A DNA stretch of 64,000 bases, taken from the NCBI RefSeq assembly GCF_021654335.1, contig NZ_AP023423.1, positions 2,169,001 through 2,233,000 on the forward strand, written 5' to 3'. Under the pieces are notes generated by a model. That model was not told the origin of the DNA. It was given only the letters and a program-made list of their open reading frames with translations, and did no database searches. This document shows positions 41,461 to 61,812 of the stretch, piece after piece (the first letter of the stretch is position 1; every line of letters starts with the position of its first letter). The stretch is from Sideroxyarcus emersonii. GTDB lineage: Bacteria > Pseudomonadota > Gammaproteobacteria > Burkholderiales > Gallionellaceae. A program made the translations under genes and the position numbers.

Positions 41461-41482
41461 CCGTCATATTCGCGTAACAAGC
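41461..41482 (+). promoter_or_regulatory. weak Pho-box-like pair before the EAL-CBS-GGDEF gene
   Basis: CCGTCATATTC followed by GCGTAACAAGC: two 11-bp units with T-C-A / T-A-A in the same register. Only the first unit is close to CTGTCAT. It lies between two divergent operons. Weak by itself; listed because better arrays occur nearby. Confidence 0.3.
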
Positions 41483-41526: not shown

Positions 41527-43389
41527 ATGCTCGGCATTCTACCTGTCGAAAAGTACCGCACCACCGCCCGCGCACAGTTTTTGGCAAGACTACCCTTGCC
41601 GCGCATGAAGGAGCAAGCAATGACGCCTCTCCGCGAAATCCTGGAACAGCGACGCTTGAGCGCACTGTTCCAACCCATCATCGATCTCAAGAGCGGCGAG
41701 TTCCTGGGCTTCGAGGGATTGATACGCGGTCCGGCGGACAGTCCGCTGCATTCCCCGATCAACCTGTTCGGCGCCGCGGAACAGCAGGGGCTGCAGCTGG
41801 AACTGGAGATGCTGTCGCGCCAGACCGTGCTGGAAACATTCGCCCGGCTCAACCTGCCCGGCAACCTTTTCCTCAACGTCAGCCCGCTGACCTTGACCAA
41901 CCCGAGCTTCAAGAACGGCCAGACGCTGGCCTTCCTGAGCCAGCTGGGCCTCAACCCGGAACGGGTCATCATCGAGATCACCGAGAACCAGCCGACCTTC
42001 GATTTCGAAGGCATGCGCAATGCGTTGCTGCACTACCGCTCGATGGGCTTCAAGATCGCCATCGACGACCTGGGCGAAGGTTTCTCCAGCCTGCGCCTGT
42101 GGTCGGAACTGCGCCCGGAATTCATCAAGATCGACATGCATTTCGTGCAGGGCGTGGATCACGACCCGATCAAGCTGCAGTTCCTCAAATCCATCCAGCA
42201 CATCGCCGAGAGCTGCGGCACCCATGTCATCGCCGAAGGGGTGGAGACCGAAGCCGAGCTGCGCGTAGTGAAGGACATCGGCATCGCCCTGGGCCAGGGC
42301 TATTTCATCGCACGCCCCAGCCCGACGCCACCGCTGCTGGCCTCCTCCGAGACCAGCAGCATCATCAACTCGACCAACATCGCCGTCTTCCCCAAGGCCG
42401 AACTGAACCGGCGTTCGCAGATGAGCGCACACAAGCTGCTGACCTACGTCGAGCCGGTGCATCCCGAGACCCTGAACGATCATGTGTTCCAGCGCTTCAC
42501 CGACAATCCCGCGCTGCGCACCATCCCCGTGGTCAAGGGCGGCAAACCGCATGGGCTGATCAACCGCTACCAGTTCATCGACCGCTTCGCCAAGCCCTAC
42601 CAGCGCGAACTGATGGGCCGGAAACCCTGCGGGGGGCTGATCGCGGGGGAACCGCTGCTGGTGGAGAAGAGCATGCCCATCGAGGAGCTCAGCCACTTCC
42701 TGGCGGAAGCCGACAGTCGCCATTTTGCCGACGGCTTCATCATCACCGAAAACGGACGCTACATCGGCGTCGCCTCGGGACAGGACCTGTTGCGGGAGCT
42801 GACGCAGATGCAGCTGGAAGCCGCACGCTACGCCAACCCTCTCACGCTGCTGCCGGGCAACGTGCCGATCAATGAGCACATCGAACGCCTGCTGCAGGCG
42901 GACACCCCCTTCGTCGCCTGCTATTGCGACCTCGACCACTTCAAGCCCTTCAACGATACCTACAGCTATCGCAAGGGCGACGAAATGATCCAGCTCACCG
43001 GCCGCATCCTCAGCTGGGCCTGCGATCCCAAACTCGATTTCATCGGCCACATCGGCGGCGACGATTTCATCCTGCTGATGCAGAGCCGCGACTGGCGCAG
43101 CCGTTGCGAACAGGCGCTGCGTTCGTTCGAACAGGCTGCCGAACTGATGTTCCGGGAAGAGCACCTGGCCGCCGGCGGATACAGCAGCGAGGGGCGCGAC
43201 GGCACCGTCACGTTCCATCCGCTCACCAGCCTGTCCATCGGCGCGACGCAGATCCAGCCGGGGCTGTTCATGTCGCATCACGAAGTCTCCGCCGCCATGA
43301 CCGACGCCAAGAAGATGGCCAAAAAAACTGCCGGCAACAGCCTGTTCATCGAGCAACGCAGCCAACCGACCACCAGGAGCATGCCATGA
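41527..43389 (+). CDS. EAL-CBS-GGDEF protein (c-di-GMP turnover)
   Basis: 620 residues. An EAL phosphodiesterase domain (about 33-275) comes first: EGLIRG (EAL variant), LFLNVSP, IEITEN, DDLGEGFSS, KIDMHF, AEGVET are all conserved. A CBS-pair-like region follows (about 305-430), then a GGDEF domain with GGDDF in the active site. Both enzyme domains look intact, so it may make or degrade c-di-GMP. The start has AGGAGG 5 nt upstream. The stop overlaps the next start (ATGA). Confidence 0.92.
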   Translation: MLGILPVEKYRTTARAQFLARLPLPRMKEQAMTPLREILEQRRLSALFQPIIDLKSGEFLGFEGLIRGPADSPLHSPINLFGAAEQQGLQLELEMLSRQTVLETFARLNLPGNLFLNVSPLTLTNPSFKNGQTLAFLSQLGLNPERVIIEITENQPTFDFEGMRNALLHYRSMGFKIAIDDLGEGFSSLRLWSELRPEFIKIDMHFVQGVDHDPIKLQFLKSIQHIAESCGTHVIAEGVETEAELRVVKDIGIALGQGYFIARPSPTPPLLASSETSSIINSTNIAVFPKAELNRRSQMSAHKLLTYVEPVHPETLNDHVFQRFTDNPALRTIPVVKGGKPHGLINRYQFIDRFAKPYQRELMGRKPCGGLIAGEPLLVEKSMPIEELSHFLAEADSRHFADGFIITENGRYIGVASGQDLLRELTQMQLEAARYANPLTLLPGNVPINEHIERLLQADTPFVACYCDLDHFKPFNDTYSYRKGDEMIQLTGRILSWACDPKLDFIGHIGGDDFILLMQSRDWRSRCEQALRSFEQAAELMFREEHLAAGGYSSEGRDGTVTFHPLTSLSIGATQIQPGLFMSHHEVSAAMTDAKKMAKKTAGNSLFIEQRSQPTTRSMP

Positions 43390-43529
43390 GAAAAACCGCC
43401 GCAGGAAACGCAGCAGTCTCCGAAAAAACCACGCCCAGCATCCGCAGCCTGCTGCTCACCTGCGGCATCGGCGGCGCACTCGACTACCTGTGCACCTTCT
43501 CGGTGTTCTCCGTGCTGTCGGCAGCGTGA
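43386..43529 (+). CDS. small membrane protein of 47 residues
   Basis: Starts MRKTAAGNAAVSEKTTPSIR and continues as one hydrophobic segment of about 27 residues to the stop. It overlaps the EAL-GGDEF stop (ATGA) and its own stop overlaps a GTG start of the acyltransferase (GTGA), so all three should be translationally coupled. No family recognised. It could be a real single-pass peptide or a decayed longer gene. Confidence 0.6.
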   Translation: MRKTAAGNAAVSEKTTPSIRSLLLTCGIGGALDYLCTFSVFSVLSAA

Positions 43530-44431
43530 AGCGGGAGAACGACTTGGCCAGACGACTGATCGCCCTGTTCCGCGCCGTGCGCCTCGCGCTGCACATCGGC
43601 TACGGCCTCGCCCTGGCCGTGGCCTATCCATGGTTCAGCCTGGCCTTGCAGCGGCGCATCCTGCAGCGCTGGTCGTCCGGCTTGCTGGACATCTTCAATG
43701 TGCGCATCGAGATCGATGACGCCGATCCGCTACGCTCGCTGCGCCACGGCCTCATCGTCACCAACCACATCTCGTGGCTGGATGTGTTCGTGCTGAATGC
43801 CGTGGTGCCGATGCGTTTCGTCGCAAAATCGGAAGTGCGCCGCTGGCCGGCGATCGGCTGGCTGTGTGCGCGCGCGCAGACCCTGTTCATCGAACGCGGC
43901 AAGGCTCGCTCCGCCGCGCGCATCAACGTGCAACTGGTCGAGCTGCTACAGCGCGGCGGCTGCCTTGCGATCTTCCCCGAAGGCACCACCACCGACGGCA
44001 CCCGGGTGGCGCATTTCCATGCCTCGCTGCTGCAACCCGCCATCGACGCCGGCGCCCAGGTACATCCCGTCGCCATCCGTTATCAGGACAGGAACGGCGC
44101 ACACAGCATGGCCGCCGCCTATATCGACGATATGTCCTTCGGCGCTTCGATGTGGAACATCCTGAGCGAACCGGAACTGCACGTCCGCCTGGTCGCCACC
44201 CCGCCGCTGGAGGCGAGCGGCACCGACCGGCGCATCCTGACGAATTCCGTGCGGCACCACATCAGCATGGCGCTGGCCGACATGCATGCCGCGCCCATCA
44301 TGTCACCGCAGCTCGCCGATCCCGCACATGTCATCGCGCGCATGGAAGCCGAACAGCACTTCCAGTCGCTCTACTGCGTCCTGCTCTATCCGTCGCTCGC
44401 ACACGAGGCCTCGCCGCACCAGGCCAAGTGA
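43526..44431 (+). CDS. 1-acylglycerol-3-phosphate / lyso-ornithine-lipid O-acyltransferase (OlsA-like)
   Basis: About 301 residues. PlsC-type motifs: NHISWLD (Hx4D) and FPEGTTTDG; an N-terminal hydrophobic anchor. Directly upstream of olsB, so the probable role is the second acylation in ornithine lipid synthesis (OlsA); a PlsC role in phospholipid synthesis is the alternative. Start: GTG at 43526, coupled to the 47-residue gene; a TTG at 43544 with GGGAG 7 nt before it is the other candidate. Confidence 0.88.
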   Translation: MKRENDLARRLIALFRAVRLALHIGYGLALAVAYPWFSLALQRRILQRWSSGLLDIFNVRIEIDDADPLRSLRHGLIVTNHISWLDVFVLNAVVPMRFVAKSEVRRWPAIGWLCARAQTLFIERGKARSAARINVQLVELLQRGGCLAIFPEGTTTDGTRVAHFHASLLQPAIDAGAQVHPVAIRYQDRNGAHSMAAAYIDDMSFGASMWNILSEPELHVRLVATPPLEASGTDRRILTNSVRHHISMALADMHAAPIMSPQLADPAHVIARMEAEQHFQSLYCVLLYPSLAHEASPHQAK

Positions 44432-44463
44432 CTTCATCAATTTTTCATATTCCCTTAACCCCG
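44431..44463 (+). promoter_or_regulatory. Pho-box-like array upstream of olsB
   Basis: Three consecutive 11-bp units: ACTTCATCAAT, TTTTCATATTC, CCTTAACCCCG, each with TTCA/TTAA at the same place. This is the direct-repeat layout of PhoB sites (CTGTCAT every 11 bp). A possible -10 (CAATAT) follows at about 44468-44473. Binding by PhoB is inferred, not shown. Confidence 0.5.
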
Positions 44464-44514
44464 CTGCAATATCCGCTCGCTAACCTGCTCCCATCAATTC
44501 AACGGGAGAACACA

Positions 44515-45273
44515 ATGCTGGACCTGATCAAGCAAGAGCAGCGCGAAACACCCGGCAGGCTCACTTTCAGCCTGGCACGCACGGTCGCCGAAGTGGCGGA
44601 AGCCCAGCGTGTCCGCTTCAAGGTCTTCGCCGAAGAGATGGGGGCCAAGCTGCCCAGCGCCGCACTGGGCCTGGATATCGACCGTTTCGACGAGTTCTGC
44701 GACCACCTGCTGGTGCGCGACCATGGCAACGACAAGGTCGTCGGCACCTACCGCATCCTGCCGCCGGAGCAGGCGGTGATCGCGGGCGGCTATTACTCCG
44801 AGACCGAATTCGACCTGTCGCGCCTGATGCACCTGCGCGACCGCATGGTCGAAGTCGGACGCTCCTGCGTGCACCCCGATTACCGCGACGGCGCGACCAT
44901 CACCCAGCTATGGAGCGGCCTGGCCGACTACATCGGCAAGCACGGCCATGAATACCTGATCGGCTGCGCCAGCATCAGCATGGGCGACGGCGGCCACTAT
45001 GCCGCCAGCGTCTACAACAAGGTGCACAAACTGCACGGCGCCCCCGCCGAATACCACGTGTTTCCGCACTGCCGCCTGCCGCTGGAATCGCTGAACCAGA
45101 ATCTGGATGTCACCATCCCGCCGCTGATCAAGGGGTACCTGCGCCTGGGTGCCTATGTCGCCGGCGAGCCGGCATGGGATCCCGACTTCAATTGTGCGGA
45201 CCTGTTCATCCTGATGCCGGTATCGCGCATGAACGCCCGCTACGCCAAGCATTTCATGCGGAAGGCCGCCTAG
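44515..45273 (+). CDS. olsB: L-ornithine N-alpha-acyltransferase OlsB
   Basis: 252 residues. GNAT-like acyltransferase of the OlsB/hemolysin-like family: it transfers a 3-hydroxy fatty acid to the alpha-amine of ornithine, the first step of ornithine lipids, which carry no phosphate. Motifs seen: RFKVFAEEMGA, DEFCDHLLVRD, VGTYRILPP, VEVGRSCVHPDYRDG. The start has GGGAG 7 nt upstream. Its own promoter region carries the Pho-like array, and OlsA-like is just upstream. Confidence 0.93.
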   Translation: MLDLIKQEQRETPGRLTFSLARTVAEVAEAQRVRFKVFAEEMGAKLPSAALGLDIDRFDEFCDHLLVRDHGNDKVVGTYRILPPEQAVIAGGYYSETEFDLSRLMHLRDRMVEVGRSCVHPDYRDGATITQLWSGLADYIGKHGHEYLIGCASISMGDGGHYAASVYNKVHKLHGAPAEYHVFPHCRLPLESLNQNLDVTIPPLIKGYLRLGAYVAGEPAWDPDFNCADLFILMPVSRMNARYAKHFMRKAA

Positions 45274-45396: not shown

Positions 45397-45765
45397 ATGG
45401 AAAGTCCGTATAAAGGTAAGACAGGTCTGGTACGTTTGTGGAACGCTTTCGGCTATTCGCTGGCCGGGTTCCGCGCCGCGTACAAGCACGAGGATGCGTT
45501 CCGGCAGGAAGTGCTGCTCGCCATCGTCATGATCCCGCTGGCGCTGTGGCTGCCGGTGAGCCACATCGGCAAGGCCTTGATGATCTCCAGCGTGCTGCTG
45601 GTGATCGTGATCGAATTGCTCAACTCCGCCATCGAGGCCACCGTGGACCGCATCTCGCTGGAAAACCACGATCTGGCCAAGCGTGCTAAGGACATCGGCA
45701 GCTCGGCAGTCCTGGTGAGCCTGATCAATGTGCTGGTGGTATGGGGGCTGGTGCTGACGGCATGA
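45397..45765 (+). CDS. dgkA: diacylglycerol kinase DgkA
   Basis: 122 residues, the standard DgkA size, three membrane helices. The motif NSAIEATVDRIS(L) in ELLNSAIEATVDR is the active-site signature. It phosphorylates diacylglycerol to phosphatidic acid, returning lipid to phospholipid synthesis. AGGAG precedes the chosen ATG at 45397; an earlier ATG at 45355 lies in the promoter. Confidence 0.96.
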   Translation: MESPYKGKTGLVRLWNAFGYSLAGFRAAYKHEDAFRQEVLLAIVMIPLALWLPVSHIGKALMISSVLLVIVIELLNSAIEATVDRISLENHDLAKRAKDIGSSAVLVSLINVLVVWGLVLTA

Positions 45766-45786: not shown

Positions 45787-45830
45787 CGTTCATCAACTCT
45801 TCAAGAAAATTTAATCAAATATTCACACGC
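45787..45830 (+). promoter_or_regulatory. four-unit Pho-box-like array upstream of the glycosyltransferase
   Basis: Four tandem 11-bp units: CGTTCATCAAC, TCTTCAAGAAA, ATTTAATCAAA, TATTCACACGC. The TTCA/TTAA core falls at the same place in each unit. This is the most regular array in the window. It ends 11 bp before the ATG at 45841, so any transcript starting downstream of it would be almost leaderless, or the start is the ATG at 45850. Confidence 0.5.
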
Positions 45831-45840
45831 GCGCGGCAGC

Positions 45841-47064
45841 ATGCGCCGTATGAATACACCAAACGAAAACCTCACTTCGTCGGCGCAACTGAACATCGCG
45901 CTGGTCACTGAAACCTACCTGCCCGAGGTGAACGGTGTCGCCATCACCATCGGGCGCATGGTGCAAGGCCTGCGCCGCCGCCAGCATCGCATCCACATGA
46001 TCCGCCCTCGCCAATCCAGACAGGACGTGGCGGCAAAAGAGGATGGCTACGAGGAAACGCTGGTGAACGGCATGCCCATCCCAGGCTATCCCGAACTGAA
46101 ATCCGGGCTGCCCGCCAAGGGCCTGCTGGTGCGCCTGTGGAAGCTGCAGCGCCCGGACATCGTGCACATCGCCACCGAAGGCCCGCTGGGCTGGTCGGCG
46201 CTGTCCGCCGCACGCAAGCTGGACATCCCGGTGAGCACCGATTTCCACACCAACTTCCACAGCTATACGCAGCACTACGGCGTCGGCCTGCTGAAGAAAC
46301 CGATCGCCGCCTACCTGCGCCACTTCCACAACAAGGCGGCCTGCACGCTGGTCCCCACCACTTCACTGCAGCAACAGCTGGAGTTCGAGGGATACAGGGA
46401 CGTGCTGGTGGTCTCGCGCGGCGTGGATGCGGAACTGTTCCACCCGGCCAAGCGCAGCAACGAATTGCGCGCATCCTGGAACGCGGACGAGAACACGCCG
46501 GTGGTCATGCTGGTGAGCCGCATCGCGCCGGAAAAGAACCTGCACGTGGTCATCCAGGCATTCGAGCAGATGCGCAAGGTCAACCCGCTGGCCCGGCTGG
46601 TGATGGTCGGCGACGGCCCGGCACGCGCCGAGCTGGAGAAGCAGCACCCGCACGTGATCTTCGCCGGGATGCAGACCGGCGAACCGCTGGCGACGCACTA
46701 CGCCTCCGGCGACATCTTCCTCTATCCCAGCCTGACCGAGACCTACGGCAACGTCACCGTCGAGGCGATGGCCAGCGGCCTGGCCACCATCGCTTACGAT
46801 TACGCCGCCGCACGGCAGCACATCCAGCACGACGTGAACGGCTTGCTGGTCCCCTTCGCCGACACCGATGCGTTCGTGACCCAGGCCCGCGGCCTGGTCT
46901 CGGACATGGACCGCGTACAGCGCCTGCGCATCGCCGCACGCCAGACGGTGGAGTCGCTGACCTGGGAACACATCATGGGCGAAATGGAAGCCGTGCTGCT
47001 CGACATCGTCCGCAAACAGGGAGCTCAACATGTCCAACCTGAACTTTCCCCTGCAACAGATTAA
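45841..47064 (+). CDS. GT4-family glycosyltransferase (diacylglycerol or mannosyl type)
   Basis: 407 residues, GT-B fold. N-terminal acceptor half LVTETYLPEVNGVAITIGRM, C-terminal nucleotide-sugar half with VVMLVSRIAPEKN, GDGPARAELE and the EX7E motif (ETYGNVTVEAMASG). It resembles MgtA/SqdX-type enzymes. In this setting a diacylglycerol glycosyltransferase making phosphate-free glycolipid is the likely role; a cell-surface mannosyl role is the alternative. An ATG at 45850 is also possible. Confidence 0.85.
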   Translation: MRRMNTPNENLTSSAQLNIALVTETYLPEVNGVAITIGRMVQGLRRRQHRIHMIRPRQSRQDVAAKEDGYEETLVNGMPIPGYPELKSGLPAKGLLVRLWKLQRPDIVHIATEGPLGWSALSAARKLDIPVSTDFHTNFHSYTQHYGVGLLKKPIAAYLRHFHNKAACTLVPTTSLQQQLEFEGYRDVLVVSRGVDAELFHPAKRSNELRASWNADENTPVVMLVSRIAPEKNLHVVIQAFEQMRKVNPLARLVMVGDGPARAELEKQHPHVIFAGMQTGEPLATHYASGDIFLYPSLTETYGNVTVEAMASGLATIAYDYAAARQHIQHDVNGLLVPFADTDAFVTQARGLVSDMDRVQRLRIAARQTVESLTWEHIMGEMEAVLLDIVRKQGAQHVQPELSPATD

Positions 47065-47602: not shown

Positions 47603-49222
47603 ATGCGTTCCATCTCACTGCTCAAGACACTGACCCTGCAACAACAGCTGCGCCTCATGATGGGCATATCGGTAATCGGCATGGTCACCGTCATCGCCTT
47701 CGTGATGATCAACCTGAACCAGCTGCGCCAGGAATTCCACACCAGCCAGACCATGCAGCTGATGGACAAGAGCCTGATCGAGATCAAGGCGACCGCACTG
47801 GCGATCAGCCGCGGCGACCCGATCCTGGGCGAGACCGCAACCCAGCTGGATCAAGCCGATGCCCACATCCAGGAACTGCTGCAGCGAGCCGGCGATGCGT
47901 CGCCGCAGCCCGACCTGCGCGAGCAGCTGGCAGCCATATCCAGACAGTGGGGCGCCTACGTACAGGGCTTCAGGAACGCGATCAAGATCGCGGCGACCAG
48001 CCCGAACGACGCGTTGCAGATCCCAGACGCCATGTACGGCATGTACCTCGCGCCGATGGTGCAGCAGCTGGACAAGCTGGCCACGGTGAACAAGGCAGCC
48101 GAGTCCGACTCAGAACACAGGATAGAGGCGGTGATGAGCAAGGTGCTGTGGGTGGTGCTGCTGCCGCTGGTCGCGCTGGGGATCATCACTGTGGTCGCCG
48201 AGACCCTGTTCGGCCGCCACCTGCGCAAGCGTCTGGAAGACATCGTCGGCGAGATCAACCACCTGCACAACGGCGACCTGAGCCGGCGGCTGACCGCATA
48301 CAACAACGACGAGATCAGCCACCTGTCCAGCACGATCAACAATTTCATCGCGCGTTTCGAGACCATCCTGCACGAGGTGCACGTTTCGGCCAACCAGACG
48401 CACAAGACGGCGCACGGGGTCAGCCAGATGGCGCACTCGGTCACCGCCAACGCCAAGGAGCAGTCGGCCAAGGTGTTCCAGGTGAGCGATGCCATCGATG
48501 CCATGGGCAACACCATCAAGAAGATCGCCACCAACGCGGCGAATGCCTCTTCCGCCGCCAAGCAGACCCTGACGCTGGTGCAATCCGGCGGCGAGACCGG
48601 CAAGTCCACCATCCTCGCCTTGGGGCAGATCGACCAGACCGTCAGTTCCTCGGTCAAGACCATGAACGAGCTGAACCATGCGATCCAGCGTATCGGCAGC
48701 GTCAGCAGCATGATCAAGGAGATCGCCGAGCAGACCAACCTGCTGGCACTCAACGCCGCCATCGAGGCGGCGCGTGCCGGCGAACAGGGACGCGGCTTTG
48801 CGGTGGTGGCGGACGAGGTGCGCAAGCTGGCGGAACGCACCACCAGCGCGACCTCGGATATCACCAAGATCGTGCAGCTGATCGAGAGCGAAACCGACCA
48901 GGCGACCAAGGCCATGACGCTGGCCAAGCAGGAAGTGGCTCAGGGCGTGTTGCACGGCGAGAACATGGGACAACTGCTGCACCGGATCGAGGAATCCGTA
49001 CTCATCGTCACCGAGATGATGCGCCAGATCGCCTCTTCCACCGAAGACCAGTCGGCAGCGGGGGAAAACATCTCGCTCAACATCAATTCGGTCGCCACCA
49101 TCAGCGCCAGCACCGCCACCGACATCGAGCAGGCGCGCAACGAGATGCTGAGCCTGGCCAATGCATCGAAAGCACTGTTCGAGACGCTCGGCCAGTTCAA
49201 GCTGGCACGGGCGGCGGCCTAG
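47603..49222 (+). CDS. methyl-accepting chemotaxis protein
   Basis: 539 residues. Membrane helix 1 (about 20-40), a helical periplasmic domain of about 140 residues, helix 2 (about 175-200), HAMP, and a signalling domain with the tip [20 protein letters not shown]. No haem motif here, unlike the receptor at 14.3 kb. Its tip region is almost identical in DNA to that gene over about 120 bp. The stop shares the palindrome CTAG with the stop of the convergent phospholipase C gene. Confidence 0.93.
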
Positions 49223-50067
49223 GCCTCGCTGAACACGTCCTGCGGCAGCGGCATGCGATGCCGCAATTGCAGCGGATTGACCAGCTCGATGCGCCGGCGC
49301 ACAACAGGATCATCGGCATGCGGATTGGCATCCCACACCGGCGCTTCTCCCAGCAGGATGCGGTCGATGTGGGTCAACCGCGCACCGGTCTCGCTCAGGT
49401 AATAGTTGAAGCGGCGCTGCATCCCGGCATCGAGCCAGCGCGCACCGCGATAGCACAGATGCGACAGACGGCTGAAACGCAGCAGGCTCTCCGCACCGGC
49501 CAGCATACCGACGCCGCGCCGCGCCAGGCTCGGCGGACAGGAAAAATGCTGCGCGACATATTCGGCCAGTTCGGCACGGTGCGTCTGCATCAGTTCGGCC
49601 GGCTCGGCAAACAACTGCGTGCGGATGTGCATGTCCATCGCCCACTCGCATGCGGCATGCGTCAGCACGGGGACGTTGCCCCACATCTTCTCGTGCGCGG
49701 GAACGAAGTGGTTGTGCGCAATCACGTCGACCAGCAAGTGGCTGACAAAGCCCAGCGAGAGCGCGTATTCCTCGTCGCTCCGGGCATCGTCCAGCAGTTT
49801 GCGCGCACGCTGCCATTGATGCGTGCTCGAGAACGGCTCGCCCCAGGATTGTTCGCTCAACAGCGCAAGATCCGGCAGGCAGGCGCCGGCCAGCACCAGT
49901 CTGGGGAAGGACTTGATCGCGCGGCGATAGCGCGGATCGGTAAGCGGGACCGCCCACAGCAGCAGCTGGGCGAAATAGACATGGGTGTAGAGTCCCCATG
50001 CATGGGCATCTGCACTCCACAGCAGCAGCGGTATATACCAGCGCCAGTATTTGAGCAGACTCTTCAT
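49219..50067 (-). CDS. zinc-dependent phospholipase C family protein
   Basis: 282 residues with a cleavable-looking signal ([14 protein letters not shown] then [11 protein letters not shown]). The mature N-terminus begins with Trp, as in zinc-dependent bacterial phospholipases C, whose N-terminal Trp is a zinc ligand. PDLALLS, THQWQ and [15 protein letters not shown] provide the further His/Asp ligands. It should cut phospholipids to diacylglycerol plus phospho-head group at the cell envelope. A Pho-like array lies upstream. Confidence 0.85.
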
Positions 50068-50097
50068 GCCGGCCAGTGTCGCCGCCGCATGCGAAAC

Positions 50098-50130
50098 TTT
50101 AATGACACACAGATGATTTTATTGTGACGC
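50098..50130 (-). promoter_or_regulatory. Pho-box-like array upstream of the phospholipase C gene
   Basis: Read on the minus strand: GCGTCACAATA, AAATCATCTGT, GTGTCATTAAA. Three contiguous 11-bp units with TCA at positions 4-6 of each; the last is close to CTGTCATAAAT. It lies 31 bp before the start codon. Confidence 0.55.
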
Positions 50131-53767: not shown

Positions 53768-55195
53768 TCAGCGTTCGGCCATCTGGGTACTATCCCAGCC
53801 GCCGCCGAGTGCGCGAATCAGGTTGACACTGGCTTGCAAGCGCCTTCTGCGCAGGTTGAGTTCGTCCAATTGCACCTGCTGCGCCGCGGCTTGCGCGGTC
53901 ACGACTTCCAGGTAACTGGCGATTCCTTCGCGATAACGGTTCATGGCGATATCCAGCGTGCGCTGCGTATCGACAACCGCAGCCGTCAGAGCCTTGCCCT
54001 CCTCGGTCAGCTCGTTCAGCAGCGACAGGTTATCTTCGACCTCCCGGAAAGCCTGCAGCACAGTGGCACGGTATCTGGCGCCGGCCACCTTGAAGGCGGC
54101 CTCTTCCTGCGCCACCACGGCCTCGCGTCGGCCTGCATCGAATATGGTCATCAGCGCACTCGGCCCGATCATCCAGTACAGGTTAGGCGCATTCAGCCAT
54201 CCCGCCTGGTTGGTGCTTTCATATCCGCCAGCGGCATTCAGATTGAGGGTCGGGAAGAATGCCGATTTGGCCACGCCGATACGCGCATTGGCTGCCGCCA
54301 GATTGCGTTCCGCCGCAGAGATATCCGGCCTGCGCTGCAACAGCGTGGTCGGCACCCCCACCGGGATGGAAGGCAACTGGATATCCACCACGGCAGGTGC
54401 GATGACAAAGCTGGAAGCCGATTCGCCGACCAGCGTGGCGATCGCATGCTGATATAGCGCCCTGCTCGCCGCGATGTCGGAAATCTTGGCTTTGGCCGTC
54501 TCGAGCTGAACCTTGGCGCGGGAGACATCCAGGGCCGAATCGATGCCACCCTGGAAGCGGTTCTGGGTGAGCGTCAATGCCTTGGCATAAGCATCGACCT
54601 CATCCGCCAGCAATCTGGATTGCGCATCCAGCATGCGCAAGGTCAGGTAATCGTTCGTCAGTTCGGCTCGCAGGCTCAGATGGATCGACTCCAGTTCCGC
54701 CGCTGCCGCTTGCGCACCGGCTTCGCCCGCTTCCACCTGATTGCGCACGTGTCCCCACAGGTCAACCTCGTACGAGGCGGCCAGGCCGAGTGCGTTATCG
54801 TTGTATAGATTCGGCTGCGCCGCAGAACGCAGCGCCCGGGTCTGGGACTGCTTGTTGCGCGTCGAATAGGCGCCCGCCGAAAGCGTCGGGAAATAGCCCG
54901 CTCGGGCTTGCGCGGCATAGGCGTTCGCCTGGTCGAAATGCGCCACGGCCACGGCCAGATCGGGGTTCGCCGCATCCAGCCGCACCACCAGATCGTCCAG
55001 CGTCGAGTCCTTGTAGGCCTTCCACCAATCGCCGCGCGGCAGATGATCCGCAGGCTGTGCCGGTTGCCAGACCGAGGCATCCCCCTGGTAGGCCGCAGGC
55101 GCAGCAACCTTGGGCGTCTCGTAGACAGGCGCCTCGGAACAGCCGATCAGGATGGAAATACCCAGCATCGACGATGCCAGCCGCATATATCTCAT
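53768..55195 (-). CDS. RND efflux outer-membrane lipoprotein (NodT/OprM type)
   Basis: 475 residues. Signal peptide with lipobox LIGC (mature Cys near residue 19), then the repeated TolC-like helical-hairpin domains: ARAGYFPTLSAGA and ARIGVAKSAFFPTLNLNA mark the two halves. Third gene of the efflux operon; the start overlaps the adaptor stop by 4 bp. Confidence 0.94.
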   Translation of the reverse strand: MRYMRLASSMLGISILIGCSEAPVYETPKVAAPAAYQGDASVWQPAQPADHLPRGDWWKAYKDSTLDDLVVRLDAANPDLAVAVAHFDQANAYAAQARAGYFPTLSAGAYSTRNKQSQTRALRSAAQPNLYNDNALGLAASYEVDLWGHVRNQVEAGEAGAQAAAAELESIHLSLRAELTNDYLTLRMLDAQSRLLADEVDAYAKALTLTQNRFQGGIDSALDVSRAKVQLETAKAKISDIAASRALYQHAIATLVGESASSFVIAPAVVDIQLPSIPVGVPTTLLQRRPDISAAERNLAAANARIGVAKSAFFPTLNLNAAGGYESTNQAGWLNAPNLYWMIGPSALMTIFDAGRREAVVAQEEAAFKVAGARYRATVLQAFREVEDNLSLLNELTEEGKALTAAVVDTQRTLDIAMNRYREGIASYLEVVTAQAAAQQVQLDELNLRRRRLQASVNLIRALGGGWDSTQMAER

Positions 55196-56379
55196 GGCGC
55201 AGCCTCTTTCTTGTGGTCGCCGGCTTGCGCGTCCGCCCCCTGGATGCGCACGATGTCGCCCTGCACGATGGAATCGTTGGGGCTGTCGATCACACGGTCG
55301 CTGCTTTCGATCCCGCTGGACACTTCCACCACGCGCCCAAGGTCGCGCGCCAGGGTGATGGATTTGAGTACAACCCGGTTATCCGGCCCCACGGTCGCCA
55401 CTTCCAGCCCGTCCTTGCGGAACAGCAGCGCGCTCACCGGCAAACGGTAAATCTGGGCGCTGGAAGGAAGGTCGAAATGGACTTCCGCATAGCTTCCCGA
55501 GAACACCTTGCCATTCTTGTTATCCATCAGCAGCTCGACCGTGGTGGTGCGCGACGATTCGCGGATCGCATTGGCGGTACTCAGCACGCTGGCCGTGAAA
55601 GGCTGCCCCGGCAATTCCGGGAAGTAGATCTTCACCGGCATCTTCTGCTTGATCAGATAAGCGAAGCTCTGTGGCACCTCGGTATATATCCGCAGCCTGC
55701 GGTTGTCGACCACGCGGAACAACGCCTGGCCGTTGTTGCTGCCCGGATTGATCAACTTGCCGATATCGGTGTTGCGCTCGGTGACCACCCCGTCGAACGG
55801 CGCCACGATGCGCTGGAACGACTGGCTCGCCAGCAGGCTATCCAGATTGGCTTTCGCCGCATTCAATATGTCGCGCTTGGATTTGGCATCCGCTGTCTTC
55901 TCGTCCGATTCCTGGCGGGAAACGGAATCGGAAGCGACCAGATTCTGCCAGCGTTTGGCGGTGACGTCCGCGATCTCCCAGTTCGACTGGGCGGACGCCA
56001 CATCGGCCCGCGCCCGCATGATCTGCTGGTCGAGTTCCGGCGTCTCGATCTCGCCCAGCAACTGTCCCTTCTTGACGCGGGCCCCGATGTCGGTCTCCCA
56101 TGTCTTCAGATAACCGCTCACCCTCGCATAGATCGGCGCATCCAGATCGGCGCGCACATTTCCCGGCAGGATCAGTTCCTGCGTGCTGGGACCGAACTGC
56201 GGCGACACGACCTTCACCGTGACATGCTGCGACTCGACCGCTTTTTCCAGGTCATTCGCGTGATCGATGCGCATGTAGATGCCGACGACGGCAATGGTGA
56301 CCGCGACTGCGGCAAAAATCCCGCCAGCCAGACGCAGACGACGGCCAGACAAGGCAGGTTGAGGATGGTTATCAGACAT
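55192..56379 (-). CDS. RND efflux periplasmic adaptor subunit
   Basis: 395 residues. N-terminal membrane anchor (LAGGIFAAVAVTIAVVGIYM), lipoyl-like half-motifs DLDAPIYARVSGYLKTWETDIGARVKKGQLLGE and IVAPFDGVVTERNTDIGKL on each side of a coiled hairpin, then a beta-barrel domain. Links the permease to the outer-membrane channel. Overlaps the permease by 8 bp. Confidence 0.94.
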   Translation of the reverse strand: MSDNHPQPALSGRRLRLAGGIFAAVAVTIAVVGIYMRIDHANDLEKAVESQHVTVKVVSPQFGPSTQELILPGNVRADLDAPIYARVSGYLKTWETDIGARVKKGQLLGEIETPELDQQIMRARADVASAQSNWEIADVTAKRWQNLVASDSVSRQESDEKTADAKSKRDILNAAKANLDSLLASQSFQRIVAPFDGVVTERNTDIGKLINPGSNNGQALFRVVDNRRLRIYTEVPQSFAYLIKQKMPVKIYFPELPGQPFTASVLSTANAIRESSRTTTVELLMDNKNGKVFSGSYAEVHFDLPSSAQIYRLPVSALLFRKDGLEVATVGPDNRVVLKSITLARDLGRVVEVSSGIESSDRVIDSPNDSIVQGDIVRIQGADAQAGDHKKEAAP

Positions 56380-59300
56380 TGTTTTGCTCCACGTTTAATG
56401 TTTCAGCATGGGATACCGTGCTCTTCCCTTTATCCCTGTGCACCAGACTGAACACCACCGGCACAAAGAGCAGTGTTGCGACTGTCGCGAACGACAGGCC
56501 GCCGATCACAGCCCGGCCCAGCGGGGCATTCTGTTCGCCGCCATCGCCCAGACCCAGCGACATCGGGATCATACCGATGATCATGGCAAGGGCGGTCATC
56601 AACACCGGACGGAAACGGACAAAGCCCGCCTCCACCGCTGCGGCGATGCCGTCGTCGCCCATCTGCAGCCGTTCCCGCGCAAAGCTGATCACCAGGATAC
56701 TGTTGGCCGTCGCCACCCCCATACACATGATCGAGCCGATCAGTGCCGGCACCGACAAGGTGGTCCCGGTGGTGAACAACATCCAGATGATGCCCGCAAT
56801 GGCCGCCGGCAGCGCAGTGATGATGACGAAAGGATCCAGCCACGACTGGAAGTTGACCACGATCAGCAGATACACGAACACCACGGCACCGAGCAGGCCG
56901 AACAGCAGTTCGCTGTACGAATCGCTCATCGCCTTGACCTGGCCGCGCACCTCCACGAACGAGCCCTTGGGCAGATCGTTCGCGGTCTCCTCCAGCACCT
57001 GGTTGATATCGTGCGCCACGCTGCCGAGATCGCGCTGCTGCGTGGTGCCGAAGATATCGATGGTCGGCTGCACATCGTAATGGGACACCACCGACTCGCC
57101 CTGCCCTCTAGAAATCGTGGCCACGCCGCTAAGCAATTGCGATTCCGATGTCGAATCGCCGCTCGACAAGACCGGGATGTTTTGCAGATCGTTCAGCGTA
57201 TCCAGCCGGTACTGCGGCACTTGCACGACCAACGGATAGGAGACGCCGTTAGACGGGTTGACCCAGAAGTTCGGTGCGGTCTGCAAGCTGCCGGACAGGG
57301 AGACCAGCAGGTTGGTCGCAATATCGTGCTGGGTCAATCCCATCTCGCGGGCACGGGTGCGATCCACGTCCACATGCAATTCCGGCTGGTTGAATGCCTG
57401 CTGGACGCGCAAGTCGACCAGGCCGGGAATCTTCTTCAGGCGCGACATGATCATCGCGGCATATTTCTGGTTCTCGGCGCGCTTGAAACCGATGACCTGG
57501 ATATCGATCGGCGAAGGCATGCCAAAATTCAGGATCTGGCTCACGATATCGGCCGGCAGGAAAGCGAAGGTCGCTCCCGGGAAATCGTCGGCCAGACGGG
57601 CGCGCAGCATCTCGACGTATTGCTCGGTGGGGCGATGCCCCTCCTTCAACGTGATCATCACATCCGCATCGCCGGGACCGATCGGTGACGAGTTGCTGTA
57701 AGTCAGGTTGATACCGCTGACCGGCAAGCCGATGTTGTCCACGATATTGTCGATCTCTTCGACGGGAATGTATTGCCGGATCCGGTTCTCGACCTCGTCG
57801 CACAACCTTGCCGTTTCTTCCAGCCGGGTGCCGGTCTGCGCCCGGATATGCAGCTTGATCTGTCCGCCATCCACGACCGGGAAGAAATTGCGCCCCAGCC
57901 AGGGCAGGAGCATGAACGAAGCCAGCACGAAGCCGAGGAAACCTGTGATGAATTTGCGGCGATGCGTCATCGCAAGCAGCAGCAACTGGCGGTAGGTCTC
58001 GCGCACGCGGGTGAAAACGTTCTCGAAGCCATGCTGGAAGCGCACCAGCGGATTCTTGGGCACCACATGCTCTCCCTCATGGTGCGGAACATGCGGACGC
58101 AGCAGGTATTTCGCCAGCGTCGGCACCAGGGTACGCGACAGGATGAAGGAGGCGATCATCGCGAATATCACCGCCTCGGCCATCGGGACGAACAGGTATT
58201 TCTGCACGCCGCTGAGGAAGAACATCGGGATGAACACGATACAGATGGAAAGCAGCGACACGAAGGCCGGCACCACGATCTGGTTCGCCCCGTCGAGGAT
58301 CGCGCCTTCCACGGGTTTGCCCTGCTCCAGGTGCCAGTTGATGCTCTCGATCGTCACCGTGGCCTCGTCGACCAGCACACCGACCGCCAGCGCCAGGCCG
58401 CCCAGTGTCATCACGTTCAGCGTCTGGCCGAAAGCCGACAGCGCGATGATCGCGGATAGGACCGACAACGGAATGGAGATCGTCACGATCAGGGTCGAAC
58501 GCCAGCTGCCCAGGAACAGCAGGATCATCAGGCCGGTCAAGCCGGCCGCGATCACGCCTTCGCGGATCACGCCGTCGATGGAAGACCGGACGAAGATGGA
58601 CTGGTCACCCACCAGGTCGACGTTCAGGCCGGCCGGGGCACCCGCCTCGATGCGCGGCAGCAGCTCCTTCACGTGTTCGATGATATCCAGCGTGGAAGCG
58701 CTGCCGTTCTTCTGGATGGTGGTCAGCACCGAGTGCTTGCCATCGACGCGCACCATGTTCTGCTGCGGCGAGTAACCGTCGCGCACATGCGCCACGTCGC
58801 GCACCAGGATCGTCGCACCATTGACCGTCTTGATCGGCAGGTCGTTCAGCTCGTCGAGAATATTGGTACTCGCATTCAGCAACACGTTATATTCGAACGT
58901 GCCCATCTTCTCCGTGCCTGCCGGCAGGATCAGGTTCTGCTTCTGGATCGCATTGCTGACGTCGCTGGGGACCAGCCCCTTGGAACGCAAGGCCTGCATG
59001 TCCAGGTCGACGATGATCTGCCTGTTCTTGCCGCCATAGGGCGAAGGTACTGCCGCTCCCTCGACCTGCGCCAATTGCGGGCGGATGAAGTTGTTCGAGA
59101 TATCGAACAACTGGTTATCCAGCAGCGTATCGCTGGACAGCGCCAATTGCAGGACCGGCACGCTCGATGCGTTGTAGCTCAGAATCAGCGGCGGCGTGAT
59201 ACCCGGCGGCAGGCGTTTCAGAACGGTCTGGGAAAGCGCCGTCACCTGGCTCACGGCGGCATTGATGTTGGCGTTTGGCTGGAAGAATATCTTGACGACC

Positions 59301-59572
59301 GCCACGCCCGGAAGCGATTGCGACTCGATATGCTCGATATCGTTGACCGTGGTCGTCAGGTTACGCTCGTAGAAGGTCGTGATCCGATTGGACATGTCGG
59401 TGGGCGGCATGCCGTTGTAGTTCCACACTGCGCTGACCACCGGCACCTTGATGTCCGGGAAGATGTCCGTGCGCATGTTCACGTAAACCAGCGGTCCAAG
59501 AATCAAGATCAGCAGCGCCAGCACCATGAAGGTATACGGGCGGCTTAATGCGATTCGGACAATCCATATCAT
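56372..59572 (-). CDS. RND efflux inner-membrane permease
   Basis: 1066 residues, full-length AcrB-like transporter: 12 membrane helices in two halves with large periplasmic loops (starts MIWIVRIALSRPYTFMVLALL). In helix 4 the proton-relay pair of AcrB (D407 D408) reads D-E in GVLVDEATV. In helix 10 the AcrB Lys940 position reads Ala in GVATANSIL. So the usual Asp-Asp-Lys relay is altered. Substrate not predictable; the neighbouring two-component system probably controls it. Confidence 0.94.
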   Translation of the reverse strand: MIWIVRIALSRPYTFMVLALLILILGPLVYVNMRTDIFPDIKVPVVSAVWNYNGMPPTDMSNRITTFYERNLTTTVNDIEHIESQSLPGVAVVKIFFQPNANINAAVSQVTALSQTVLKRLPPGITPPLILSYNASSVPVLQLALSSDTLLDNQLFDISNNFIRPQLAQVEGAAVPSPYGGKNRQIIVDLDMQALRSKGLVPSDVSNAIQKQNLILPAGTEKMGTFEYNVLLNASTNILDELNDLPIKTVNGATILVRDVAHVRDGYSPQQNMVRVDGKHSVLTTIQKNGSASTLDIIEHVKELLPRIEAGAPAGLNVDLVGDQSIFVRSSIDGVIREGVIAAGLTGLMILLFLGSWRSTLIVTISIPLSVLSAIIALSAFGQTLNVMTLGGLALAVGVLVDEATVTIESINWHLEQGKPVEGAILDGANQIVVPAFVSLLSICIVFIPMFFLSGVQKYLFVPMAEAVIFAMIASFILSRTLVPTLAKYLLRPHVPHHEGEHVVPKNPLVRFQHGFENVFTRVRETYRQLLLLAMTHRRKFITGFLGFVLASFMLLPWLGRNFFPVVDGGQIKLHIRAQTGTRLEETARLCDEVENRIRQYIPVEEIDNIVDNIGLPVSGINLTYSNSSPIGPGDADVMITLKEGHRPTEQYVEMLRARLADDFPGATFAFLPADIVSQILNFGMPSPIDIQVIGFKRAENQKYAAMIMSRLKKIPGLVDLRVQQAFNQPELHVDVDRTRAREMGLTQHDIATNLLVSLSGSLQTAPNFWVNPSNGVSYPLVVQVPQYRLDTLNDLQNIPVLSSGDSTSESQLLSGVATISRGQGESVVSHYDVQPTIDIFGTTQQRDLGSVAHDINQVLEETANDLPKGSFVEVRGQVKAMSDSYSELLFGLLGAVVFVYLLIVVNFQSWLDPFVIITALPAAIAGIIWMLFTTGTTLSVPALIGSIMCMGVATANSILVISFARERLQMGDDGIAAAVEAGFVRFRPVLMTALAMIIGMIPMSLGLGDGGEQNAPLGRAVIGGLSFATVATLLFVPVVFSLVHRDKGKSTVSHAETLNVEQNNV

Positions 59573-59783: not shown

Positions 59784-61145
59784 CTATTCCCCAAGCGACC
59801 AGCAGAACACCGTTGCCCGCGTGCCCGGCTTGGCTGCCGCCAGTTCGAAACCGAAATCGTGCAGGCGGATGATCGCCATCACGATGCTCAATCCCAAACC
59901 GAAACCGGGGGCCTGTATTTCGTTCTGACCGCGATAAAAACGGTTAAGCACGGCAGTCCTCTCGCTTTCGCTGATGCCGGGGCCGCTATCGACGATATCG
60001 ACCTGAGGCCCGCGCTCCCCTTGCGCCAGCCTGACCTCGATCCGCCCGCCCGCGGGTGTGAATTTGATCGCATTGTCGAGCACGTTGACGAAGACCTCGA
60101 ACAGCAGATCGCCATCCCCGAGGATGGGATTGACGCTGCCCGCCGTGAGCGAAAGCCGGATCAGCTTGTCCTCTGCCAGCGGGATGAGAAAATTCACCGC
60201 CTGCTCCAGAATGTCCTGCAGCTTCACCTGCTTGAAACCCGCCCTTCTCTGCTTGTTCTCGATCTCGGAAATCCGCAGCAGGGCGCGGAAGCGCAACAGC
60301 AGCGAATCCACCTCGCCGATCACCTGCTCCACCATGGCCTGCTGGGCCGGCATACCCTCCATTTGCTGCTGCATGCGGTAAAGCACGGCGCGCAAGCGGG
60401 TCAACGGGGTACGCAGATCGTGCGCGATGTTGTCGCCCACGCTCTTGACCTCGGACATCAGCCTTTCGACCTCGTCGAGCATGCGATTGACGATGGCGGA
60501 CAGCATATCGAGTTCGTCGCGGTGCCGGCTCACGGGCAGGCGCTGGCCGATATCGCCGCGCATGATGAGCTCGCAAACCTGCTGTATCTGTTCGACGCGG
60601 CGCAGCGGACGGAAACTCAGGATCAGCCCGAATGCCAGGCCGAGCAGGATGGTCAGCGAACCGCCCCAGAAGAAGGTTTTCCTGGTGATCTCGCCGAACT
60701 CGGTGAGCTGCAGCACATCGTGGCCGATCAGCAGCGTATTCCCCGCGCCGATGTTGATCAGCAGCGCGCGCGCCGGCAGCGGCTCAGGCTGCAGATCGGT
60801 CACCAGCCGGGTGTCATAGATATAACCGTCCACCGGCACGCCATACGGCAACTGGAAAACGTTGCCGGTCAGGCGCTGCCCGCCCGGTGCGAACAACCCG
60901 TAGAAATAGACATGGCGCTGGTCGCGCTGGATGCTCCTGTCGATCTCTGCAGCCAGGCGATCCGGGGCAATCTCGCCGAAACGGATGTTCTCCAGCGTCA
61001 GCACCTGGTCGACGCGGCGCGTCATCTCCGTCGCCGTCTGCCAGTAGATGAAACCCAGCAGCATGACCACGCAGACCGCAAAGAACAGGCTGTAGAACAG
61101 GGTCAGCCGGAAGGCGACCGTGCGCGAGAGTTCAGCTATGCTCAC
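59784..61145 (-). CDS. sensor histidine kinase
   Basis: 453 residues. Membrane helix 1 (about 10-33), periplasmic sensor about 130 residues, helix 2 (about 165-182), HAMP, then HisKA with the phospho-acceptor in GDNIAHDLRTPLTRL, N-box FVNVLDNAIKFT, G1 DSGPGI and G2 GLGLSI. Active kinase expected. The start overlaps the regulator by 14 bp. It lies directly upstream of the efflux operon. Confidence 0.95.
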   Translation of the reverse strand: MSIAELSRTVAFRLTLFYSLFFAVCVVMLLGFIYWQTATEMTRRVDQVLTLENIRFGEIAPDRLAAEIDRSIQRDQRHVYFYGLFAPGGQRLTGNVFQLPYGVPVDGYIYDTRLVTDLQPEPLPARALLINIGAGNTLLIGHDVLQLTEFGEITRKTFFWGGSLTILLGLAFGLILSFRPLRRVEQIQQVCELIMRGDIGQRLPVSRHRDELDMLSAIVNRMLDEVERLMSEVKSVGDNIAHDLRTPLTRLRAVLYRMQQQMEGMPAQQAMVEQVIGEVDSLLLRFRALLRISEIENKQRRAGFKQVKLQDILEQAVNFLIPLAEDKLIRLSLTAGSVNPILGDGDLLFEVFVNVLDNAIKFTPAGGRIEVRLAQGERGPQVDIVDSGPGISESERTAVLNRFYRGQNEIQAPGFGLGLSIVMAIIRLHDFGFELAAAKPGTRATVFCWSLGE

Positions 61146-61812
61146 TTAACATGTACCCCGAACCGCGCACCGTATGGATGAGCGAAGACAGGCCCGGCAT
61201 ATCGACCTTGCGGCGCAGGCGGCCGATATGCACGTCGATGATGTTGGTCCCCGGATCGAAACGGTAGCCCCAGACCGATTCGAACAGCATGGTGCGGGTC
61301 AGCGTCTGCCCGAAATTGCGCATCATGTACTCCAGCAAACGGAATTCGGTCGGCAACAGGTCCAGCTCCACATTGCCGCGAATGGCCTTGCGTTCCACCA
61401 GGTCGAGTTCGAGATCGGCTACGCGCAGCTTGGTCTGGCGTTCCGAGCGGCTTTTGCGCCGCAGCAGCACTTCGACCCGCGCCGCCATCTCTTCCGAGGC
61501 AAACGGTTTCACCAGATAATCGTCGCCGCCCGCGCGCAAGCCATCCACGCGCTCGTCCACATCGCTCAGCGCGCTGATCATCAGCACGGGCGTCTCGATC
61601 TCCCTTTCCCGCATCGCGGTGACGATGGTCAAGCCATCCACGAAAGGCAGCATGCGGTCCAGCGTGACCAGATCGTAACTTCCGCTCAGCGCCCGATCCA
61701 GTCCCTCCTTGCCGTCTTTTGCCCACTCCACCTCGAACCCATGGTTGCTGAGCTCGTCCACGATCTCCTGCGCTGTGGTCGCGTCGTCTTCAATCGTCAG
61801 AATCCTGGTCAT
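61132..61812 (-). CDS. OmpR/PhoB-family response regulator
   Basis: 226 residues. Receiver domain (DD at 8-9, phospho-Asp in LVTLDRMLPFVDG, Lys in VKPFASEE), then a winged-helix DNA-binding domain (FRLLEYMMRNFGQTLTRTML...VDVHIGRLRRKVD). Pairs with the overlapping kinase. Likely targets are the efflux operon and perhaps the porin next door. Members of this family bind 11-bp direct repeats. Confidence 0.95.
   Translation of the reverse strand: MTRILTIEDDATTAQEIVDELSNHGFEVEWAKDGKEGLDRALSGSYDLVTLDRMLPFVDGLTIVTAMREREIETPVLMISALSDVDERVDGLRAGGDDYLVKPFASEEMAARVEVLLRRKSRSERQTKLRVADLELDLVERKAIRGNVELDLLPTEFRLLEYMMRNFGQTLTRTMLFESVWGYRFDPGTNIIDVHIGRLRRKVDMPGLSSLIHTVRGSGYMLSEHS

Follow-up and report, generated by a model that had tools for sequence, protein, structure and literature searches.

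What controls the gene for a predicted zinc-dependent phospholipase C (hereafter PLC) in Sideroxyarcus emersonii, and does the short repeat in front of it place this enzyme in the phosphate regulon, together with lipid genes of the same neighbourhood? In Pho boxes of the E. coli type, 7-bp repeats resembling TGTCA recur every 11 bp along one face of the DNA; the last of them stands 10 bp ahead of the -10 element, and the repeats replace the -35 element. PhoB binds such direct repeats, called pho boxes (PMC10294691). The genome encodes a PhoB of its own (G000:C1:257207; TIGR02154 at 358.6 bits, cut-off 296.2). The window that we analysed is the whole stretch of 64,000 nucleotides at positions 2,169,001 to 2,233,000 of contig NZ_AP023423.1, and window coordinates are counted from its first letter. 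The elements around the PLC start are the following.

50124..50130, minus strand: Pho-box unit 1, GCGTCAC (T[CA]A core in 33 of 33 close orthologues)
50113..50119, minus strand: Pho-box unit 2, AAATCAT (core in 32 of 33 close orthologues, TGA in L025)
50102..50108, minus strand: Pho-box unit 3, GTGTCAT, the unit nearest to CTGTCAT (core in 33 of 33 close orthologues)
50091..50097, minus strand: weaker unit 4, GTTTCGC, in the 11-bp register (the glk-linked clade, among others, has a full TCAY unit here)
50075..50080, minus strand: -10-like hexamer GACACT, 10 bp past unit 4 (spacing as in the orthologues and in pstS/phoB)
49219..50067, minus strand: zinc-dependent phospholipase C (PF00882), 282 aa, with a predicted signal peptide ending AHA before W24

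A preliminary description of this window had reported three TCA units exactly 11 bp apart on the minus strand at 50098-50130, and this is what the DNA contains: from 50130 to 50102 it reads GCGTCAC, AAATCAT and GTGTCAT, with the TCA cores in an exact 11-bp period. The array and its promoter run on past the end of that segment, to include unit 4, the GACACT hexamer and the start codon, so that the full minus-strand reading is GCGTCAC AATA AAATCAT CTGT GTGTCAT TAAA GTTTCGC ATGCGGCGGC GACACT GGCCGGC ATG. Unit 4 and GACACT are each a poor match on their own. No sigma-70 -35/-10 pair was found in the PLC promoter region, which is as expected if the promoter is activated by PhoB. The ATG at 50067 lies 7 nt beyond GACACT and has no Shine-Dalgarno sequence, for which reason the PLC mRNA is probably leaderless.

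The PLC promoter works like a PhoB promoter and shows each feature of one that can be tested by computation: TGTCA-type heptamers (three at the exact spacing and one weak) with an 11-bp period, and a set distance to a -10 element without a -35, the same 10 bp being found in most orthologues and in pstS and phoB. It resembles the E. coli type in its direct repeats, its period and its distance to the -10, and differs from it in having four units, the fourth weak, instead of two, and in a start codon so close to the -10 that a leader is probably absent. A Pho box serving the divergent DUF218 gene was considered as well and rejected, the conserved element there being a GATAAT -10 on the opposite strand.

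How similar is the array to the PhoB sites of the same genome? The phoB promoter reads CTGTCAT GTTA CTGTCAT, followed after 10 bp by TACCAT, and the pstS promoter ATGTAAT AATT GTGTAAC, followed after 10 bp by TAAGAT; six of the seven letters of PLC unit 3 (GTGTCAT) match the CTGTCAT unit of phoB. The preliminary description had called the array Pho-box-like and had proposed a matrix scan as a check. With a unit matrix trained only on the phoB and pstS units of relatives, the PLC array comes first among the three-unit arrays of the window and second among the four-unit arrays, behind that of the olsB-like gene (see below), and since phoB and pstS are themselves preceded by units of this type in this geometry, the name appears well chosen. 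As a two-unit arrangement (a single 18-bp Pho box) the PLC site scores 10.75 bits and ranks only ninth in the window, versus 24-29 bits for phoB and pstS of the same genome. It is thus mediocre as a two-unit box, and its strength lies in the tandem array.

By this matrix the highest-scoring pair of Pho-box-like units in the window is located elsewhere, at 41461-41478 on the plus strand (CCGTCATATTCGCGTAAC), 50 bp ahead of an EAL/GGDEF open reading frame at 41527. Further matches in the genome to a Pho box plus -10, each with one mismatch, are found at G000:C1:2526342 (L153), 2113101 (L152) and 934349 (L150).

One may ask whether the repeat is simply a chance series of TCA triplets in an AT-rich upstream stretch. 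By chance, 0.03 copies of the pattern TCAY-N7-TCAY-N7-TCAY are expected in the window but about 1.3 in the 2.74-Mb genome, and the individual units are imperfect, which would suit a chance origin; the genome holds three exact copies (none for a reversed-pattern control), and this count alone would not be convincing. What makes the array convincing is its location and its conservation. On that strand of the intergenic region only about 3e-5 copies are expected, and of the other two exact copies in the genome, one is the Pho box of phoB, immediately in front of that gene. Across 34 genomes of the genus the pattern has 134 matches versus 14 for the reversed pattern, and the sites that recur (from a list read by eye) are the PLC promoter, in about 28 genomes, and the phoB promoter, in about 29. 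The third exact genomic match, at G000:C1:1414773 (L117), resembles a repeated or coding motif more than a Pho box, because similar TCACCAGGGAATCACC sequences recur across the genus.

Conservation was followed in a close set of 33 orthologous PLC promoters, nearly all from the genus, and in a further set of 26 upstream regions, one of them from another genus of the same family at 63% identity and the rest at 46-53%; the gene itself is present in 57 of 399 sampled genomes of the order, from 25 genera. In the close set the TCA/TAA cores of units 1-3 keep a constant distance to the start, with the single exception in unit 2 noted above. The array is retained across three gene contexts, including a clade in which the divergent neighbour is, by reading, glk-like, and it is retained where PLC diverges from a pstS paralogue. 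In the glk-like-neighbour clade it reads TCTTCAT CAAA ATCTCAC GCAC TTGTCAT CTGC GCTTCAT, a sequence very different from that of the query, with the phase kept and a better unit 4. Among the further orthologues the best upstream array exceeds the 95th percentile of control DNA in 25/26 regions and the 99th in 22/26 (median score 14.3, versus -0.2 in the control). Most of these have the -10 at 10 bp past unit 4, and the start codon follows the -10 at 6-7 nt or, preceded by a Shine-Dalgarno sequence, at about 22 nt; the -10 thus keeps its position where the start has moved, and the promoter geometry is held independently of the start codon. A chance origin is hard to reconcile with a phase and position kept in both sets, including clades whose array sequence is different, and we give it a negligible probability. 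In L064 (G016) and L069 (G020), an insertion of over 100 bp separates the conserved promoter and start from the codons of the PLC signal peptide.

Which other genes carry such arrays? Of the four genes listed below, all on the plus strand of the window and within 6 kb of PLC, it is the olsB-like and glycosyltransferase (GT4) genes, 3-6 kb away, that do.

43526..44431, plus strand: OlsA-like O-acyltransferase (PF01553); best NCBIfam matches are OlsA models, under their cut-offs
44431..44470, plus strand: four-unit array ahead of the olsB-like gene (ACTTCAT, TTTTCAT, CCTTAAC, CTGCAAT)
44481-44486, plus strand: olsB -10, TAACCT
44515..45273, plus strand: OlsB-like N-acyltransferase (PF13444); best NCBIfam matches are OlsB models, under their cut-offs
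45397..45765, plus strand: DgkA-type diacylglycerol kinase, named by reading of the sequence, with no NCBIfam match
45787..45826, plus strand: four-unit array ahead of GT4 (CGTTCAT, TCTTCAA, ATTTAAT, TATTCAC)
45837-45842, plus strand: GT4 -10, CAGCAT
45850..47064, plus strand: GT4 glycosyltransferase; start at 45850 preferred, 7 nt past the -10

In the olsB and GT4 arrays the units are 11 bp apart with 10 bp to the -10, and each of the 11 genus loci that we compared keeps this arrangement; no array was found upstream of dgkA. The true start of GT4 is probably 45850, an upstream ATG being replaced by ATA in L159, and when started there the gene appears to be leaderless. The nearest named families of GT4 are GlcN-PG synthase and monoglucosyl-DAG synthase, both makers of glycolipids, under their cut-offs; given that none of OlsA, OlsB and GT4 reaches the curated cut-off of a named enzyme, the lipid products are uncertain. 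PLC, GT4, dgkA and olsBA keep their synteny in the genus and their linkage across the order. In distant genera the array exceeds the 95th percentile before GT4 in 11 of 11 cases (before dgkA in 2 of 11), and the 99th before olsB in five of five. The preliminary description had suggested that PLC is controlled together with glycolipid and ornithine lipid synthesis, and the arrays of the same architecture before GT4 and the olsB-like gene, in a linkage kept across the order, lend support to such a joint control at the level of sequence.

What the three promoters have in common is limited. Nine columns of their alignment are invariant. Seven of these fall in the units, being T and A in each of the first three and C in the second, and the remaining two fall in the -10. 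A full-column profile built from olsB and GT4 with PLC held out (R2) found olsB and GT4 and missed the PLC promoter, both in the genome and in the window. It follows that the three share repeat cores and geometry and not overall sequence; the miss is a test of one common promoter sequence and not of a defining feature of Pho boxes. A profile from all three promoters (R1), a circular search, returned only those three sites and one more at E 0.17.

It may then be asked whether the array is bound by PhoB itself or by another regulator of the OmpR/PhoB family that answers to some other signal, of the envelope or of nutrients. Direct repeats of 11 bp are bound by further members of the OmpR family too, and 41 proteins of the genome match the PhoB model at E<=0.001, mostly OmpR-family paralogues; it is nevertheless a matrix trained on phoB and pstS that puts the PLC array first. 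Most units before olsB and GT4 have TTCA and not GTCA, which would suit another regulator, whereas PLC has GTCAC and GTCAT among its units, like phoB, and the arrays of distant GT4 and PLC genes are textbook CTGTCAT/CTGTCAC. Moreover, in some clades PLC diverges from pstS, whose side has its own Pho box of standard geometry. We consider another regulator quite improbable, and retain PhoB. An OmpR-family response regulator is encoded at 61132-61812 on the minus strand, near an RND efflux operon (53768-59572); it is a local candidate that we do not think acts on PLC.

The enzyme was named a zinc phospholipase C in the preliminary description, and its sole Pfam match, PF00882 at 75.5 bits (cut-off 26.8), agrees with this. 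The closest named orthologues belong to metagenome-assembled genomes of Gallionellaceae and Sideroxydans. Nine residues are invariant in 21 orthologues (W24, H29, D66, H83, H110, D114, H120, H137 and E141), of which W24 is the first past the predicted signal cleavage site, and by their spacing they match what we take to be the zinc ligands of the Bacillus enzyme. Indeed, the H-x3-D-x5-H and H-x3-E spacing and the N-terminal Trp of the mature chain are presumably shared with the phosphatidylcholine-preferring phospholipase C of Bacillus cereus, another member of PF00882, which is secreted by a Gram-positive organism and whose production is repressed by phosphate. This relation holds at the profile level only, since phmmer found no solved structure matching PLC at E<=1, and an AlphaFold2 model (pLDDT 41.5) is too poor for checking the zinc ligands. 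Phospholipase C activity and secretion are thus predicted properties of the protein.

An exported enzyme under PhoB could mainly degrade phospholipids outside the cell for their phosphate, with no remodelling of the membrane. A signal peptide is predicted, after which the mature chain would begin with Trp; this would fit such a role, as would the adjacency of pstS to PLC in G001, G009, G014 and G311. The remodelling reading has, for its part, a difficulty of location: with PLC predicted to be exported and GT4 expected in the cytoplasm, diacylglycerol would need to cross the membrane. PLC is, however, linked with GT4 in 11/15 distant regions, five of which also have olsB, and this linkage, with the common geometry of the arrays, points to a use of the diacylglycerol. 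We therefore regard scavenging alone as unlikely, although clearly less so than another regulator, and think that remodelling is the better account.

The locus can be compared with known remodelling systems. The PlcP-Agt pathway, for which our comparison covers Sinorhizobium, Phaeobacter, SAR11 and Pseudomonas aeruginosa, has a Pho-box-controlled phospholipase C beside a glycosyltransferase, and ornithine lipid is made when cells are stressed for phosphate (PMC4796936, PMC8528852). The present locus is similar in having Pho-box-type arrays on both its phospholipase and its glycosyltransferase genes, and different in that its phospholipase is a predicted exported PF00882 zinc enzyme and not PlcP. 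PlcP is a metallophosphoesterase of the calcineurin type, and of the five PF00149 proteins that a search of the genome gave, LpxH and ApaH included, none was recognisable as such; the search was made with no PlcP query and hence leaves its absence unproven. The locus works like PlcP-Agt remodelling and is yet not a member of it, because PlcP itself is missing from the locus. In Burkholderiales, Pho boxes have been predicted before olsB, and P. xenovorans forms ornithine lipid when phosphate is low (PMC7814305); the olsB part of that work treats no linked PLC or GT4, whereas the olsB-like gene of the present locus sits in a conserved island. Our literature search found no relevant paper on phosphate starvation in Sideroxydans, and none that connects the Pho regulon to a zinc phospholipase C.

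Taken together, it is highly probable, in our opinion, that the PLC element is a PhoB-dependent promoter in a locus for lipid remodelling in phosphate starvation, with PhoB binding and a response to phosphate that we infer from the DNA. Under phosphate shortage, PhoB in its phosphorylated form would occupy the tandem 11-bp units, three good ones and a weak one offering room for two PhoB dimers. It would stand in for the missing -35 and bring RNA polymerase to the -10 hexamer that follows after 10 bp. The transcript would begin at the ATG or immediately beside it, as a leaderless mRNA for the exported zinc phospholipase C, which would cut the head groups from phospholipids, releasing phosphate esters for reuse and diacylglycerol. 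The same regulator would induce GT4, which may convert diacylglycerol into a glycolipid, and OlsB/OlsA, which may make ornithine lipid; these putative phosphorus-free lipids would take the place of phospholipids and save phosphorus, while DgkA would return surplus diacylglycerol to phosphatidic acid.

How far does this extend? We see an even chance that in part of the order (Betaproteobacteria, with iron-oxidising Sideroxydans relatives among them) phosphate starvation sets off a replacement of lipids through an exported zinc PLC that stands in the place of PlcP and is driven, together with GT4 and OlsBA, by four-unit PhoB arrays, two of the genes being leaderless. Iron oxidisers live among iron oxides, which bind phosphate tightly, and a lineage of this kind would have a predicted pathway for saving phosphate in its membrane. 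The probable leaderless start would tie activation by PhoB to translation without a Shine-Dalgarno sequence. Finally, if this is true, a zinc phospholipase C that is exported can do the work of PlcP, and surveys that take PlcP as the marker of remodelling would therefore miss these bacteria.
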